From contig JAUNMP010000007.1 in the NCBI GenBank assembly GCA_030537465.1, positions 1 to 53,306 on the forward strand: 53,306 nt of DNA, read 5' to 3'. Below the pieces are notes generated by a model. That model saw only the letters and a list, made by a program, of their open reading frames with translations. It searched no databases and was not told where the DNA came from. This document shows, one piece after another, positions 3,224-49,371 of the stretch; the stretch's first letter is position 1, and every line of letters begins with the position of its first letter. The translations under genes were made by a program, and so were the position numbers. The stretch comes from a bacterium. GTDB taxonomy: Bacteria; Verrucomicrobiota; Kiritimatiellia; RFP12; UBA1067.

Positions 3224-3269
3224 ACATAGTTCTCATTGGTCACACGAGGATGACCAATGAGAACTATGT
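3224..3269. repeat. Conserved hairpin, copy A (solo)
   Basis: Perfect 19-bp inverted repeat with an 8-base loop. Left arm ACATAGTTCTCATTGGTCA, right arm its exact complement. The same stem recurs at 46475-46519, 46611-46653 and 47994-48036. Compared with copy B one stem position is T/A instead of A/T, a compensatory change. No T-tract follows, so it is not a standard terminator. Confidence 0.85.
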
Positions 3270-45144: not shown

Positions 45145-45178
45145 CTTCTCAACCTCTCAACTTCACAACCGTCTCAAC
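45145..45178. repeat. CTCAAC-type short tandem repeat between genes
   Basis: Four units of 8-9 bp on the plus strand (CTTCTCAAC, CTCTCAAC, TTCACAAC, CGTCTCAAC). The stop codon of the aminotransferase gene (45174-45176) lies inside the last unit, and the next gene starts 2 bases beyond the first. Same family as 11612-11656. Confidence 0.7.
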
Positions 45179-46391
45179 CACGCATCTTCGCGACAGCGCG
45201 CTTGAAGCCCTCCGCGGAGCGGGCGATGATCTTCTCGTCCACGCTGCAGGAGAGACGGATGTGTCCGGCCATGCCGAAGCCGCGTCCCGGAACCGCGAGG
45301 ATGAGCTCCTCCTGGAGTGCGTCCACGAACTTGAGGTCGTCTCCGCCCGGCGCCTTCGGGAAGAAGTAGAAGGCCCCCTTCGGCTCCACGAACTCGACGC
45401 CCGCGTCGGAGAGCACCTTCGCCATCAGCTTGCGACGACGGTCGTAGATCTCGAGGTCGACGGTCTGGTCGAGGAGCTGCGCCGCGAGGCGCTGGCCGAT
45501 CACCGGCGCGTTCACGAAACCGAGCGTGCGGTTCGTCAGCGTGACGGCGTTGACGAGCGTCGTTCCATCCGGCATCTCGGGGTGGATCGCGACATAGCCG
45601 ATGCGCTCGCCCGCGAGCGAGAGCGTCTTGGAGAAGGATCCAAGCACGACCGCGTAGGGCGTGAGCGGCATCACCGGCGGCACCACGGCGCCGTCATAGG
45701 CGAAGGCACGATAGGGTTCGTCGCTGAGGAGGTAGAGCGGACGCGCCGCATCGCCGAATTCGGCCTGACGATCGGCGTTCACATTGTTCACGATCTCCGC
45801 AAGGCGCTTGAGGTCCTCTTCGGCGTAGATGCAGCCCGTCGGATTGTTCGGCGAGTTGATGAGAAAAGCACGCGTCTTCGGCGTCACCGCTGCGGCCATC
45901 GCGTCGAAGTCGGGACGGAAGCCCTCGTCGGGCTTCGAGGCGATTGCCTTCAGCACGCCGCCGAAGTGTCCGCAGTAGCTGCCGTATTCCACGAAGTAGG
46001 GTGCCGGACAGATCACCTCGTCGCCGGGTTCGATCACTGCACGGAAGAAGCTCACGAGCGCACCGGCCGCGCCAACCGTCATGATGACGTTACCGGCCTT
46101 GACCTCAGTCGCCTGCTGCTTCGCGAGATAGCCGGCGATCGCCTCGCGCACAGGCGGAAGCCCCGCGTTCGGACAGTAACCGAGTCCGAGCGGTTCGATC
46201 GCCTTTGCGGCGATGGCCTCGAGGACCTCCTTGGTCTTCGCCGGCGGCGGCACGTCCGGATTGCCGAGCGAGAAGTCGCAGACCGCATCCGCGCCATGCT
46301 GTTTCTTGAGTTCGATGCCCTTTTCGAACATCTTACGGATCCAAGACGATCCCGCCATGGACTGTTTAATCTGATTGGTAACCGTTTGCAT
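45174..46391 (-). CDS. Class I/II pyridoxal-phosphate aminotransferase
   Basis: 405 residues, cytoplasmic. CDFSLGNPDVPPP, GYCPNAGLPPVREAIAGYL, VGAAGALVSFFRAVIEPGDEV, FLINSPNNPTGCIY, YLLSDEPYRAFAYDG and GSFSKTLSLAGERIGY (Schiff-base Lys in SFSK) are the fold-type I aspartate aminotransferase blocks, closing with IRLSCSVDE that carries the carboxylate-binding Arg. It transfers amino groups between an amino acid and a 2-oxo acid; the exact substrate is not readable. It has no Shine-Dalgarno; TATAAT ends 6 bases before the ATG. First gene of the five-gene run down to barstar. Confidence 0.92.
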   Translation of the reverse strand: MQTVTNQIKQSMAGSSWIRKMFEKGIELKKQHGADAVCDFSLGNPDVPPPAKTKEVLEAIAAKAIEPLGLGYCPNAGLPPVREAIAGYLAKQQATEVKAGNVIMTVGAAGALVSFFRAVIEPGDEVICPAPYFVEYGSYCGHFGGVLKAIASKPDEGFRPDFDAMAAAVTPKTRAFLINSPNNPTGCIYAEEDLKRLAEIVNNVNADRQAEFGDAARPLYLLSDEPYRAFAYDGAVVPPVMPLTPYAVVLGSFSKTLSLAGERIGYVAIHPEMPDGTTLVNAVTLTNRTLGFVNAPVIGQRLAAQLLDQTVDLEIYDRRRKLMAKVLSDAGVEFVEPKGAFYFFPKAPGGDDLKFVDALQEELILAVPGRGFGMAGHIRLSCSVDEKIIARSAEGFKRAVAKMRG

Positions 46392-46406: not shown

Positions 46407-46474
46407 CAAATTGACGCATATAGAGCATAATTCGCGAGTTGGACCGCCTCTTCTCGTCTTAAAAAATCCCTGTA

Positions 46475-46519
46475 CATAGTTCTCAATGGTCATTCCTGAT
46501 GTGACCATTGAGAACTATG
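46475..46519. repeat. Conserved hairpin, copy B
   Basis: Perfect 18-bp stem, loop 9. Left arm CATAGTTCTCAATGGTCA, right arm its exact complement at 46502-46519. Confidence 0.85.
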
Positions 46520-46530
46520 GAAGACCAATT

Positions 46531-46562
46531 ATGACAAATTGTCATTTTCTCGTCATTTTCTC
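46531..46562. repeat. Palindrome followed by an 11-bp direct repeat
   Basis: ATGACAA-A-TTGTCAT at 46531-46545, then GTCATTTTCTC twice in tandem at 46541-46551 and 46552-46562. This could be a binding site for a regulator or for the product of the downstream gene. Confidence 0.6.
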
Positions 46563-46588
46563 GTAAGGATCTTTTCCGGGTAACGTGC

Positions 46589-46594
46589 TTTAAT
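46589..46594 (+). promoter_or_regulatory. Weak -10 candidate for the hairpin-bracketed gene
   Basis: TTTAAT preceded by TGC (extended -10 form). Transcription would begin a few bases before hairpin C, placing that hairpin at the 5' end of the mRNA. No clear -35. Confidence 0.3.
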
Positions 46595-46610
46595 CTCCCG
46601 CGTCCAGGCT

Positions 46611-46653
46611 ATAGTTCTCAATGGCCACGCCGGACGCGACCATTGAGAACTAT
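46611..46653. repeat. Conserved hairpin, copy C
   Basis: Perfect 14-bp stem (ATAGTTCTCAATGG with its complement at 46640-46653), loop 15. The inner stem positions seen in copies A and B have decayed. Confidence 0.8.
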
Positions 46654-46684
46654 GCGCACGGTGGACGGGGGAAAGGAGAGCACG

Positions 46685-47980
46685 ATGGAGAGAAACGCGA
46701 CAAAGGACGAAGCGGCGCCCAAGAGTCGGGCGGAGAGAGAGACCGAGCTCAGGAAAATGCTCGACGGGGGCGGGTGCGTCCTCGTGGGGGAGAAGTGGTT
46801 CGGGCCCGAAGCGACGGAGGAGGAGAGGAGGAGGTACGCCCAGGCACTCGATCGGCGCCAGAGACGGAACGCCCGACGACGGGCGCGTCGGATGGCGCAC
46901 GCGTCGCTCAAGGCCCTCGAGAGGCGGCTCGAGGCCCTGCCGGCGTGGGCGCAGACCCGCCTGACGGGGCGAACCGCCATAGTGGAGACCTTGGGCGGCG
47001 TCCGGCGGCGCGTGGACTACTCCACGGCGTACGGCCAGAGGCGGGATCCGTTCGAATACCCGTTCCCGGACGGGAGAACGCCCCTGGAACTTGCCGTCGA
47101 CGGGGGAATTGCCGCCTGGACGTTCGTCCGACGCGCGCATCGGCTTCTCGCAGGGCCACGGCGGGGCGGAGGCGGAACGGCAGACGGGAGAAGGTCGGGA
47201 CGACTGCGGTGCGAGCGCCGGAAGCTCTGCGCGCGCTCGACGCTTGCGAATCGCCCCACAGCGACGGACGTGCGCGTGGCATGGGCGTTCGCACGGGAGT
47301 CCCACGAGGGCATGCTCCGTCTCGGAGGGCTGCTGCACGACCTCGAGTGCCATCTCGCCAATGGCCTTGAGGTAATCCACGTGGGGCGCCGCCCGAAGAT
47401 CGTCGGCCGCGCGGGCGGCGTCCGCGGGTGGATCCGGCAGAACTGCCCCGAGCTTTCCGGGAAATACAAGACCCTCATGCGCTACAAGGCGCTCGCCCTG
47501 CGCCTCCGCCAGGCCGCCGAGATCGCGGACCCCGTGCCGACGTCGGCCGCGCTCGAAGGCGGCGCGGACGCGGGGGAGCTCCTCGCGCGCTCCGCGAAGA
47601 TCCAGCCCCGCGCGGGCGGCGGACGCGTGGAGCGCTTCGCGTGGGAGCGCGGCAGATGGAGCGTCGACGCCAACGGGAGGCCCTTTCGGGCCAACGGGAA
47701 CTACTCGAGCGCGTCGTTGACGGTCTCCCTCGCCCTCGCGGCCGCCGAGGGCCATGCCGCCACCAAGGCCGACAAGGCCGATGCAGACGCACTCGGACGC
47801 CTCCGCACCCTGCTGGGGAACGCCCGAGAGACCGTGCGCGGGATCCTCGCCGCAGCCGCGGAGGCCGACGACCGGCGCGGAAGGCGCACGGCGACTCTGC
47901 AGGTGCTCCAGGAACAGGTCGACCGGGCCCTCATCGTACGCGAGAGATGGTGGGAGGACGCGATGGTGGCGCTGCGGTGA
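46685..47980 (+). CDS. Unknown basic protein with DUF3102-like C-terminal half
   Basis: About 431 residues from the ATG at 46685, with AAGGAG 6-8 bases upstream. An N-terminal Lys/Arg/Glu-rich helical region (SRAERETELRKMLDGGGC, QALDRRQRRNARRRARRM) could be a coiled coil that binds nucleic acid. A central part has LTGRTAIVETLGGVRRRVDY. From about residue 200, LRLGGLLHDLECHLANGLEV, then GWIRQNCPELSGKYKTLMRY with KALALRLRQAAEI, loosely resemble DUF3102/plasmid-type proteins; this match is weak. Residues about 145-185 are poorly ordered, and a compensated frameshift there is possible. The gene is GC-rich, uses AGG/CGG Arg codons, and is bracketed by conserved hairpins. No Y1, DDE or recombinase motif seen. 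Confidence 0.65.
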   Translation: MERNATKDEAAPKSRAERETELRKMLDGGGCVLVGEKWFGPEATEEERRRYAQALDRRQRRNARRRARRMAHASLKALERRLEALPAWAQTRLTGRTAIVETLGGVRRRVDYSTAYGQRRDPFEYPFPDGRTPLELAVDGGIAAWTFVRRAHRLLAGPRRGGGGTADGRRSGRLRCERRKLCARSTLANRPTATDVRVAWAFARESHEGMLRLGGLLHDLECHLANGLEVIHVGRRPKIVGRAGGVRGWIRQNCPELSGKYKTLMRYKALALRLRQAAEIADPVPTSAALEGGADAGELLARSAKIQPRAGGGRVERFAWERGRWSVDANGRPFRANGNYSSASLTVSLALAAAEGHAATKADKADADALGRLRTLLGNARETVRGILAAAAEADDRRGRRTATLQVLQEQVDRALIVRERWWEDAMVALR

Positions 47981-47993
47981 GCCCGACGCACGC

Positions 47994-48036
47994 ATAATTC
48001 TCAATGGTACACCCAGGTGTGACCAATGAGAATTAT
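47994..48036. repeat. Conserved hairpin, copy D
   Basis: Fifteen-bp stem with one A-A mismatch: left ATAATTCTCAATGGT at 47994-48008, right arm 48022-48036. An inner ACACC/GGTGT pairing can extend it. The left arm is of the B type at the variable position and the right arm of the A type. Confidence 0.75.
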
Positions 48037-48105
48037 TCAGAAAGGATACAGGAGGCAGAAGAAAAACTTCTGTTTTAGATCAATCCAGAACAGGACAGAT
48101 AGAGC

Positions 48106-49371
48106 TTAGTGCCCCTGGAGAGGCCGGACGATGATCGCCACCGGGTCACCGGGGCACGCGCCTTCGCATGCACCGCAACCACGGCACTTGTCGGGGTCGA
48201 TGATCGGACAGTTCACGCCGTTCCGCTCTTCGAGCTTCACGGCCTTGTACGGACAGTATTCGTCGCACACGGCGCAGTACTCGCCCTTCGCCCAGGCGAG
48301 GCACTTGTCCTTCAGAACCTCCGCACGCCCGATCGGCATCGCGTGCTTCTGTTCAACTGTGATTGGTCTGAGCGCACCCGTCGGGCAGACCTGCGTGCAC
48401 TTCACACAGTCCTGGAAGCAGTAACGGTCCTCGTCCGGATCCCAGTTCGGAATCTTGCTGCGGAAATGGATCACCGGCGAGAGGAATCCGTCAAATCCCG
48501 TCTCGCCCAGGTCCGGATGGATGAGCTCGTACGGACACGCCTTCATGCAGTTGCCGCAGCGGGCGCAGAGCGCGTTGATCCGCTCCACGTCCGCACTTGG
48601 CGGACGCAGCGCCCGCGCGCCCCCCTTCGCTCCCTTGAGGGCGAGGCCCACACCGCCCAGGGTGATCGATGTTCCAATCGAGATGCCAACATTCCCCAGG
48701 AACGAGCGCCGCGAAGTCGACGCGGCCGTCAACACCTGCGGACCACCCTCGTTCCATGCACCCGTATTCTTCGGACGCCGCAGCCACCGCGCGAACTCCA
48801 TCACCGCCTGCTGCAGCCCTCCCAGCGGACACAGCTTGTGGCACCACACGTTCGGCACAACCACCGCCAGAGCCATCACCACTACGAACATCGTTCCAAT
48901 CGACGCCGATGCCACCGTCAATGGTGCACGCCATGCGACGAAGAATCCGTTGAAGATGCAAAGGGGATCAAGCCAGAGGAACAGCGGATACCCGAATGCG
49001 GCCGTCACCACGATGAAAAGCGCGAACACTTCGTTGAGCGCAGGCACGCACTGTACCCAGCCCTTCCCCCACGGGTTCAGTTTTCCCGCCAGCTCCGCAA
49101 GGAACCCCATCGGACACAACCGCCAGCAGAAGACACGCCCCCAGAAGAACGGTACCACCAGGAGCGGCACGCCGAGCACAATCGTCCAGCCCACCCATTC
49201 CCGTGCCGCCAACGCCCCGAAGAGGTTGAGCAGAGGGCTCAACCGCGGCAGCGCGGCGGCTCCCGCCGCGCGCCACGACTCCGGCGCCAGCCCAAGGGCG
49301 AGCAGCGCGAAGACAACCACCGCCACAACACGAAGCCCATGGCGTCGGACCCAGCGGAGAATCGTGGCCAT
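48106..49371 (-). CDS. NapH-type membrane polyferredoxin
   Basis: 421 residues. The N-terminal half has about five transmembrane helices with two NapH-like cysteine motifs (FCWRLCPMG, VWCHKLCPLG). A twin-arginine-like TSRRSFLGNVGIS follows near residue 220 before a helix, as in NapG, so the protein looks like a NapH-NapG type fusion. The C-terminal half has four cysteine clusters: CARCGNCMKACP, CVKCTQVCP, CAVCDEYCP with its upstream Cys, and CRGCGACEGACP. It would pass electrons from the quinol pool or membrane to a partner outside. It begins 3 bases after the DUF362 gene; third gene of the operon. Confidence 0.88.
   Translation of the reverse strand: MATILRWVRRHGLRVVAVVVFALLALGLAPESWRAAGAAALPRLSPLLNLFGALAAREWVGWTIVLGVPLLVVPFFWGRVFCWRLCPMGFLAELAGKLNPWGKGWVQCVPALNEVFALFIVVTAAFGYPLFLWLDPLCIFNGFFVAWRAPLTVASASIGTMFVVVMALAVVVPNVWCHKLCPLGGLQQAVMEFARWLRRPKNTGAWNEGGPQVLTAASTSRRSFLGNVGISIGTSITLGGVGLALKGAKGGARALRPPSADVERINALCARCGNCMKACPYELIHPDLGETGFDGFLSPVIHFRSKIPNWDPDEDRYCFQDCVKCTQVCPTGALRPITVEQKHAMPIGRAEVLKDKCLAWAKGEYCAVCDEYCPYKAVKLEERNGVNCPIIDPDKCRGCGACEGACPGDPVAIIVRPLQGH

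Follow-up and report, generated by a model that had tools for sequence, protein, structure and literature searches.

A hairpin-bracketed orphan gene of Kiritimatiellia as a candidate RAYT/REPIN-like mobile element built on an unrelated protein

REP-type palindromes for which a cognate protein has been identified all depend, as far as we know, on Y1/HUH enzymes. Rickettsia palindromic elements exhibit a palindrome-related motif in frame within coding sequences, an arrangement that is also present in the gene family described herein, although the motif in the current case keeps to a single family of genes and to the ends of its members. In RAYT/REPIN systems, inverted REPs flank a gene, singlets and doublets are dispersed, and co-evolution is evident (PMC2817692, PMC3116915). 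Elements of the IS200/IS605 group carry no terminal inverted repeats (PMC2817692).

In a window of 53,306 nucleotides (the whole stretch of DNA analysed) from a bacterium of the class Kiritimatiellia, we judged the unit at positions 46475-48037 to be a single-gene element, mobile now or in the recent past, that is RAYT/REPIN-like and built on an unrelated protein, a reading to which we assign a probability of somewhat under 60%. Given that the anatomy of the unit is close to that published for RAYT/REPIN systems and that a Y1 domain is absent, we propose that the product of its single gene, here called X, recognises and mobilises the motif. The X protein would bind the motif on either side of the gene that encodes it, and would move the unit with its gene as well as, in trans, the solo hairpins, which are short derivatives consisting of the motif only. 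Its mode of working would be like that of a RAYT with its REPINs, with X bearing no relation to Y1 transposases, and movement of the unit may be continuing today. A preliminary description of this DNA had pointed to a hairpin-associated element with RAYT/REP-like logic and neither a Y1 nor a DDE signature, and this suggestion is supported by family-wide bracketing, subfamily-specific motifs and solo derivatives.

Three of the four copies of one hairpin in the window surround gene X, as originally noted, and the positions of hairpins and gene were verified. Gene X (46685..47980, plus strand) codes for an orphan protein of 431 amino acids. Upstream are an outer copy, hairpin B (46475..46519), which forms an 18-bp perfect stem with a 9-nt loop, and, 91 bases further on, an inner copy, hairpin C (46611..46654), which ends 30 nt before the ATG. 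Hairpin D (47994..48037) begins 13 nt after the stop codon, and hairpin A (3224..3269) carries the motif on its own, away from any X gene; none of the four is assigned a strand. The sequence ATARTTCTCAATGG, allowing up to two mismatches, has eight matches in the window where 0.2 would be expected (100 shuffles never gave as many as eight), and every match is part of an inverted pair. When folded as single-stranded DNA, hairpins A, B, C and D yield z values of -9.4, -10.0, -6.0 and -5.7 relative to shuffles, and both ends of the unit in this genome are full palindromes. The gene also differs from its surroundings in the ways first described: it is opposite in strand to both neighbours, an aminotransferase gene (45174-46391) and a gene for an Fe-S protein (48106-49371) that are each on the minus strand, its GC content of 71.5% exceeds that of the neighbours (64%) and of the window (61.6%), and its product is 16.2% Arg.

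The window genome (G000) is represented by a 5.19-Mb assembly in which at least 24 hairpins were counted among the matches listed, with the reversed control pattern giving 3-4 single matches. Six of these hairpins flank two X genes (binomial P = 2e-14), and they are thus strongly enriched at the X gene. These two X genes are the only close copies in the genome. The second copy, on contig C216, is 61% identical and likewise has two hairpins upstream, with the position equivalent to that of hairpin B filled, and one at its 3' end; dN/dS between the two genes is 0.16. The remaining paralogues in this genome have the core alone in common and are without this hairpin, and the exact window hairpin was not found in the 97 related genomes searched. 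Covariation among the hairpins of the window genome shows no excess over shuffles because most pairs never vary.

The hairpins might instead be terminators or mRNA-stabilising structures that adjoin the gene by chance. Strong stems next to gene ends are consistent with such a role, as is the location of the solo hairpins of the window genome, since most of those that were checked reside outside the main ORFs. We nevertheless consider this highly unlikely, and already disfavoured given the recurrence of the arrangement across the class. Two genes account for six of the 24 hairpins (P ~2e-14), an Rfam search gave no match, and no T-run is present 3' of hairpin D.

Of 98 genomes searched, among them that of the window, 37 contain the X family, frequently in multiple copies and at unrelated sites; all the genomes are assemblies of uncultured organisms, many of them fragmented. 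An alignment-based scan of the genome contigs returned 80 loci, and a scan with a single protein returned no match. Among 388 genomes sampled across the phylum, the 19 positives all belong to the class Kiritimatiellia. Named homologues are likewise all from uncultured Kiritimatiellae, of which some retain the label Lentisphaerae or Verrucomicrobia, and derive mostly from ruminant gut or faeces. Searches of viral contigs, phages and plasmids uncovered no homologues, an anti-phage defence library (PADLOC) gave chance-level matches only, and we found no earlier description of the family or the element in the literature searched.

An alignment of 38 members reveals a conserved core of ~130 residues; in the window protein, residues 193-278 (47261..47518, plus strand) are assigned to the core. 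Invariant positions in the core include R242, Y261, Y267, K268 and R275. The core is modelled with confidence by AlphaFold as helix-helix-beta hairpin-helix-helix, and we propose it as a candidate DNA-binding domain that may recognise the motif. Orthologues and paralogues exhibit dN/dS values of 0.10-0.26, which indicates purifying selection. The preliminary description could name no protein family firmly, and searches of Pfam, NCBIfam and PHROG are indeed all empty, with no transposase match among the 38 members. Its statement that HUH/Y1 and DDE signatures are lacking is supported by the same members: none matches PF01797, an HUH-like triplet occurs in one of the 38 with no invariant His, and no catalytic signature was found. 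Fold searches (Foldseek) with the full model and the core returned nothing significant, with no match of the core in PDB or BFVD at E <= 0.001, a result that alone proves little and is no sign of a new fold. One other protein of the window genome, of 296 amino acids (L024, 4226-5116), has a weak resemblance to the X core (E 0.044) and by eye is reminiscent of DUF3102-like phage proteins, which we mention as a lead only.

Most X members examined carry a subfamily-specific motif that appears in forward orientation just 5' of the promoter and in inverted orientation after the gene or in the 3' end of its coding region. An inverted 5'/3' match above all shuffles was found at 63 of 101 loci versus 18 for a direct match, where the shuffles keep base composition rather than dinucleotides or codons. 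A single gene between inverted palindromic motifs is thus a likeness to RAYT-REP/REPIN systems that is not universal, given that 38 of the 101 loci have no inverted match, and the motif pair is in direct orientation in part of the family, the window gene's closest relatives among them. A further likeness is that the motif co-evolves with the protein, as its variant tracks the protein cluster and not the host. The unit also resembles IS200/IS605 elements in being small, having one gene and carrying subterminal hairpin-forming motifs, but X is unrelated to TnpA-type Y1 proteins by profile search and its bracketing is mostly inverted. The preliminary description had raised homologues at conserved positions without hairpins as a point to look for; those encountered mostly have their own version of the motif.

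Left motifs mostly follow a skeleton like TCCGCACCGTAATCTCATTT, to which the window motif ACATAGTTCTCAATGG is a rough fit. In most relatives, they are located just upstream of the -35 box, adjoining the promoter, and are therefore outside the gene's own transcript. The right inverted motif resides in the 3' coding region, for example within the codons of KYENEITVR, and this frequent location in coding sequence is a departure from RAYT-REP/REPIN anatomy. With relatives mostly organised in this manner, the earlier suggestion of an mRNA capped by protective hairpins is not supported, and the same positions count against the terminator or stabiliser reading. Sister species share several of the units in synteny, and turnover is therefore slow. 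Short tandem repeats are present right after the X stop codon at three loci (L061, 2966-3100; L074, 2790-2950; L077, 3040-3200), and the repeat at L061 consists of copies of the gene's last codons.

In one genus (genome G062), X units are bounded by terminal repeats, in place of which subterminal motifs are found in other clades. In six of the ten copies fetched from this genome, a 23-25-bp terminal inverted repeat scores clearly, and it was seen separately in a seventh; including flanking bases it reads TTCRATTYCACCGTGCGTGATTTTC. Two loci (L081 and L086) have in common a block that is 92% identical and whose edges both fall within 0-4 bp of the repeats. The genome holds 52 motif matches, and the repeat also occurs in gene-less palindromes of ~68 bp. 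Insertion sequences and MITEs are similar in that terminal inverted repeats bound the duplicated unit and are also carried by short units with no gene. X differs from DDE insertion sequences, however, in having no recognised transposase domain (DDE/DEDD) and no target-site duplication: at 12 units of G062 and G087, only palindromic TCGA or AATT was found, which is part of the repeat itself. The absence of a visible duplication is another likeness to RAYT-REP/REPIN systems. In the relative loci fetched, the aminotransferase gene was not found beside the Fe-S gene, and no empty site for the window copy was seen there; for another unit (L138), the flanks in two relatives are on different contigs. 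The first 44 bp of L138 (1-44) recur at several positions of G099, a related genome, and probably represent another dispersed repeat family.

Two genomes of another order (G182 and G194), with 11 X genes scored in each, had no part in forming the hypothesis. An inverted match above all shuffles was found at nine of 21 loci versus two for direct matches, with shuffles of the composition-preserving kind used above and with some top matches being GC-rich sequence rather than the motif. Most matches have in common a new motif, TCGCGATATCAAGG, which is located about 300-330 bp before the core and again 155-210 bp before the stop codon. With up to one mismatch, G182 contains 114 copies versus none for the reversed control; dispersed extragenic singlets and inverted doublets, as in RAYT-REP/REPIN systems, are thus a feature of this genome as they are of G000 and G062. 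Among 20 further stretches of G182, seven have an inverted pair ~840-856 bp apart with an X gene inside each, an eighth (L300) has a contig end that falls inside the X gene, and the remaining 12 have solo motifs only and no X. Solo copies retain the 5' end of X, with motif and spacer followed in most cases by an ATG at a distance of 57 nt, behind which a gene is often lacking. We considered whether these solos might mark a regulon, given that many keep the ATG 57 nt downstream, but rejected this candidate because the frames are often shorter than 30 codons.

The motif embedded in the 22 X genes of these genomes uses rare codons: ATA in 22 of 22, TTG in 22 of 22 and CGA in 20 of 22, compared with ~5% of Ile, ~6% of Leu and ~3% of Arg codons elsewhere in the same genes, although the 22 genes share ancestry and are not fully independent. 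That rare codons are kept therefore points, from codon usage, to a constraint on the DNA itself within the X coding sequence.

These characteristics bear on whether X might be a DNA-binding autoregulator or chromosome organiser, whose operators are the motifs, whose copies arose by ordinary gene duplication, whose solos are further sites and which in many subfamilies is possibly membrane-anchored. The operator-like placement of the left motif just 5' of the -35 box agrees with this alternative, as do a core that could be a DNA-binding domain according to its model, the synteny of several units under purifying selection and the hydrophobic segment (mean of at least 1.6 over 19 residues on the Kyte-Doolittle scale) carried by 26 of 38 members. 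This N-terminal segment, which precedes a basic region and the core, is absent from the window protein; examples among the A3 members include L196, L199 and L202, and it is odd for a transposase. With respect to a helix-turn-helix domain, the helical core of X is confident in the model and has no profile or fold match. We rate such a regulator as rather unlikely given that it leaves unexplained why inverted motif copies lie within coding sequence, why duplicates are bounded by repeats, and why there are palindromes without a gene and solo units with an ATG but no gene.

Alternatively, the hairpins could be REPs that owe their movement to a Y1 (RAYT-type) transposase whose gene lies elsewhere, with X a passenger captured between them. 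Y1 transposases are present in all nine genomes tested, and the hairpin pairs are similar to REPINs. However, the X motif of the same genome was found at none of 30 Y1 loci, the motif follows the X subfamily, and the Y1 genes of these genomes carry other REPs, so that we regard a passenger origin as improbable. At one locus of the window genome (L233, G000:C409, 545-2584), a Y1 (PF01797) gene lies amid four GC-rich hairpins of a different sequence (CGGGGCGAGACGCCCCG...), in what looks like a conventional RAYT/REP unit. With this Y1 gene having its own REPs, two hairpin systems therefore coexist in the genome.

Returning to X as the mobiliser of its own unit, the protein lacks the defining protein feature of every known class considered, and the layout of the unit in the genome is one already familiar. 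The lack of a catalytic or fold match, of a target-site duplication and of a clean empty site at the loci examined count against this reading, as do the slow turnover, the loci with no inverted match, the direct motif orientation in the closest relatives and the left motif beside the promoter. It is conceivable, though we hold this only tentatively and at less than even odds, that X is the first of a new DNA-mobilising class (not Y1/HUH, DDE, or tyrosine or serine recombinase) that reads subfamily-specific inverted motifs, one of which is often part of the X coding sequence itself, and that disperses the X gene together with REP-like palindromes among Kiritimatiellia genomes. The unit may be a new kind of selfish DNA in gut Kiritimatiellae. 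If X shares this genomic logic, a REP-like lifestyle arose more than once, here on an unrelated protein family, X would be an experimentally accessible candidate for a new DNA-processing activity, and an explanation would be available for two recurrent features of these bacteria, a class of repeats and a family of orphan genes. The nucleotide-level constraint in the coding sequence provides a direct handle for tests.

One intergenic region possibly serves as a shared insertion hotspot. In the window genome, it follows one upstream gene and contains three solo hairpins (L025, 3330-4300); behind that upstream gene, another species has an X gene that belongs to a different subfamily and is accompanied by four left motifs (L198, 2000-4300).
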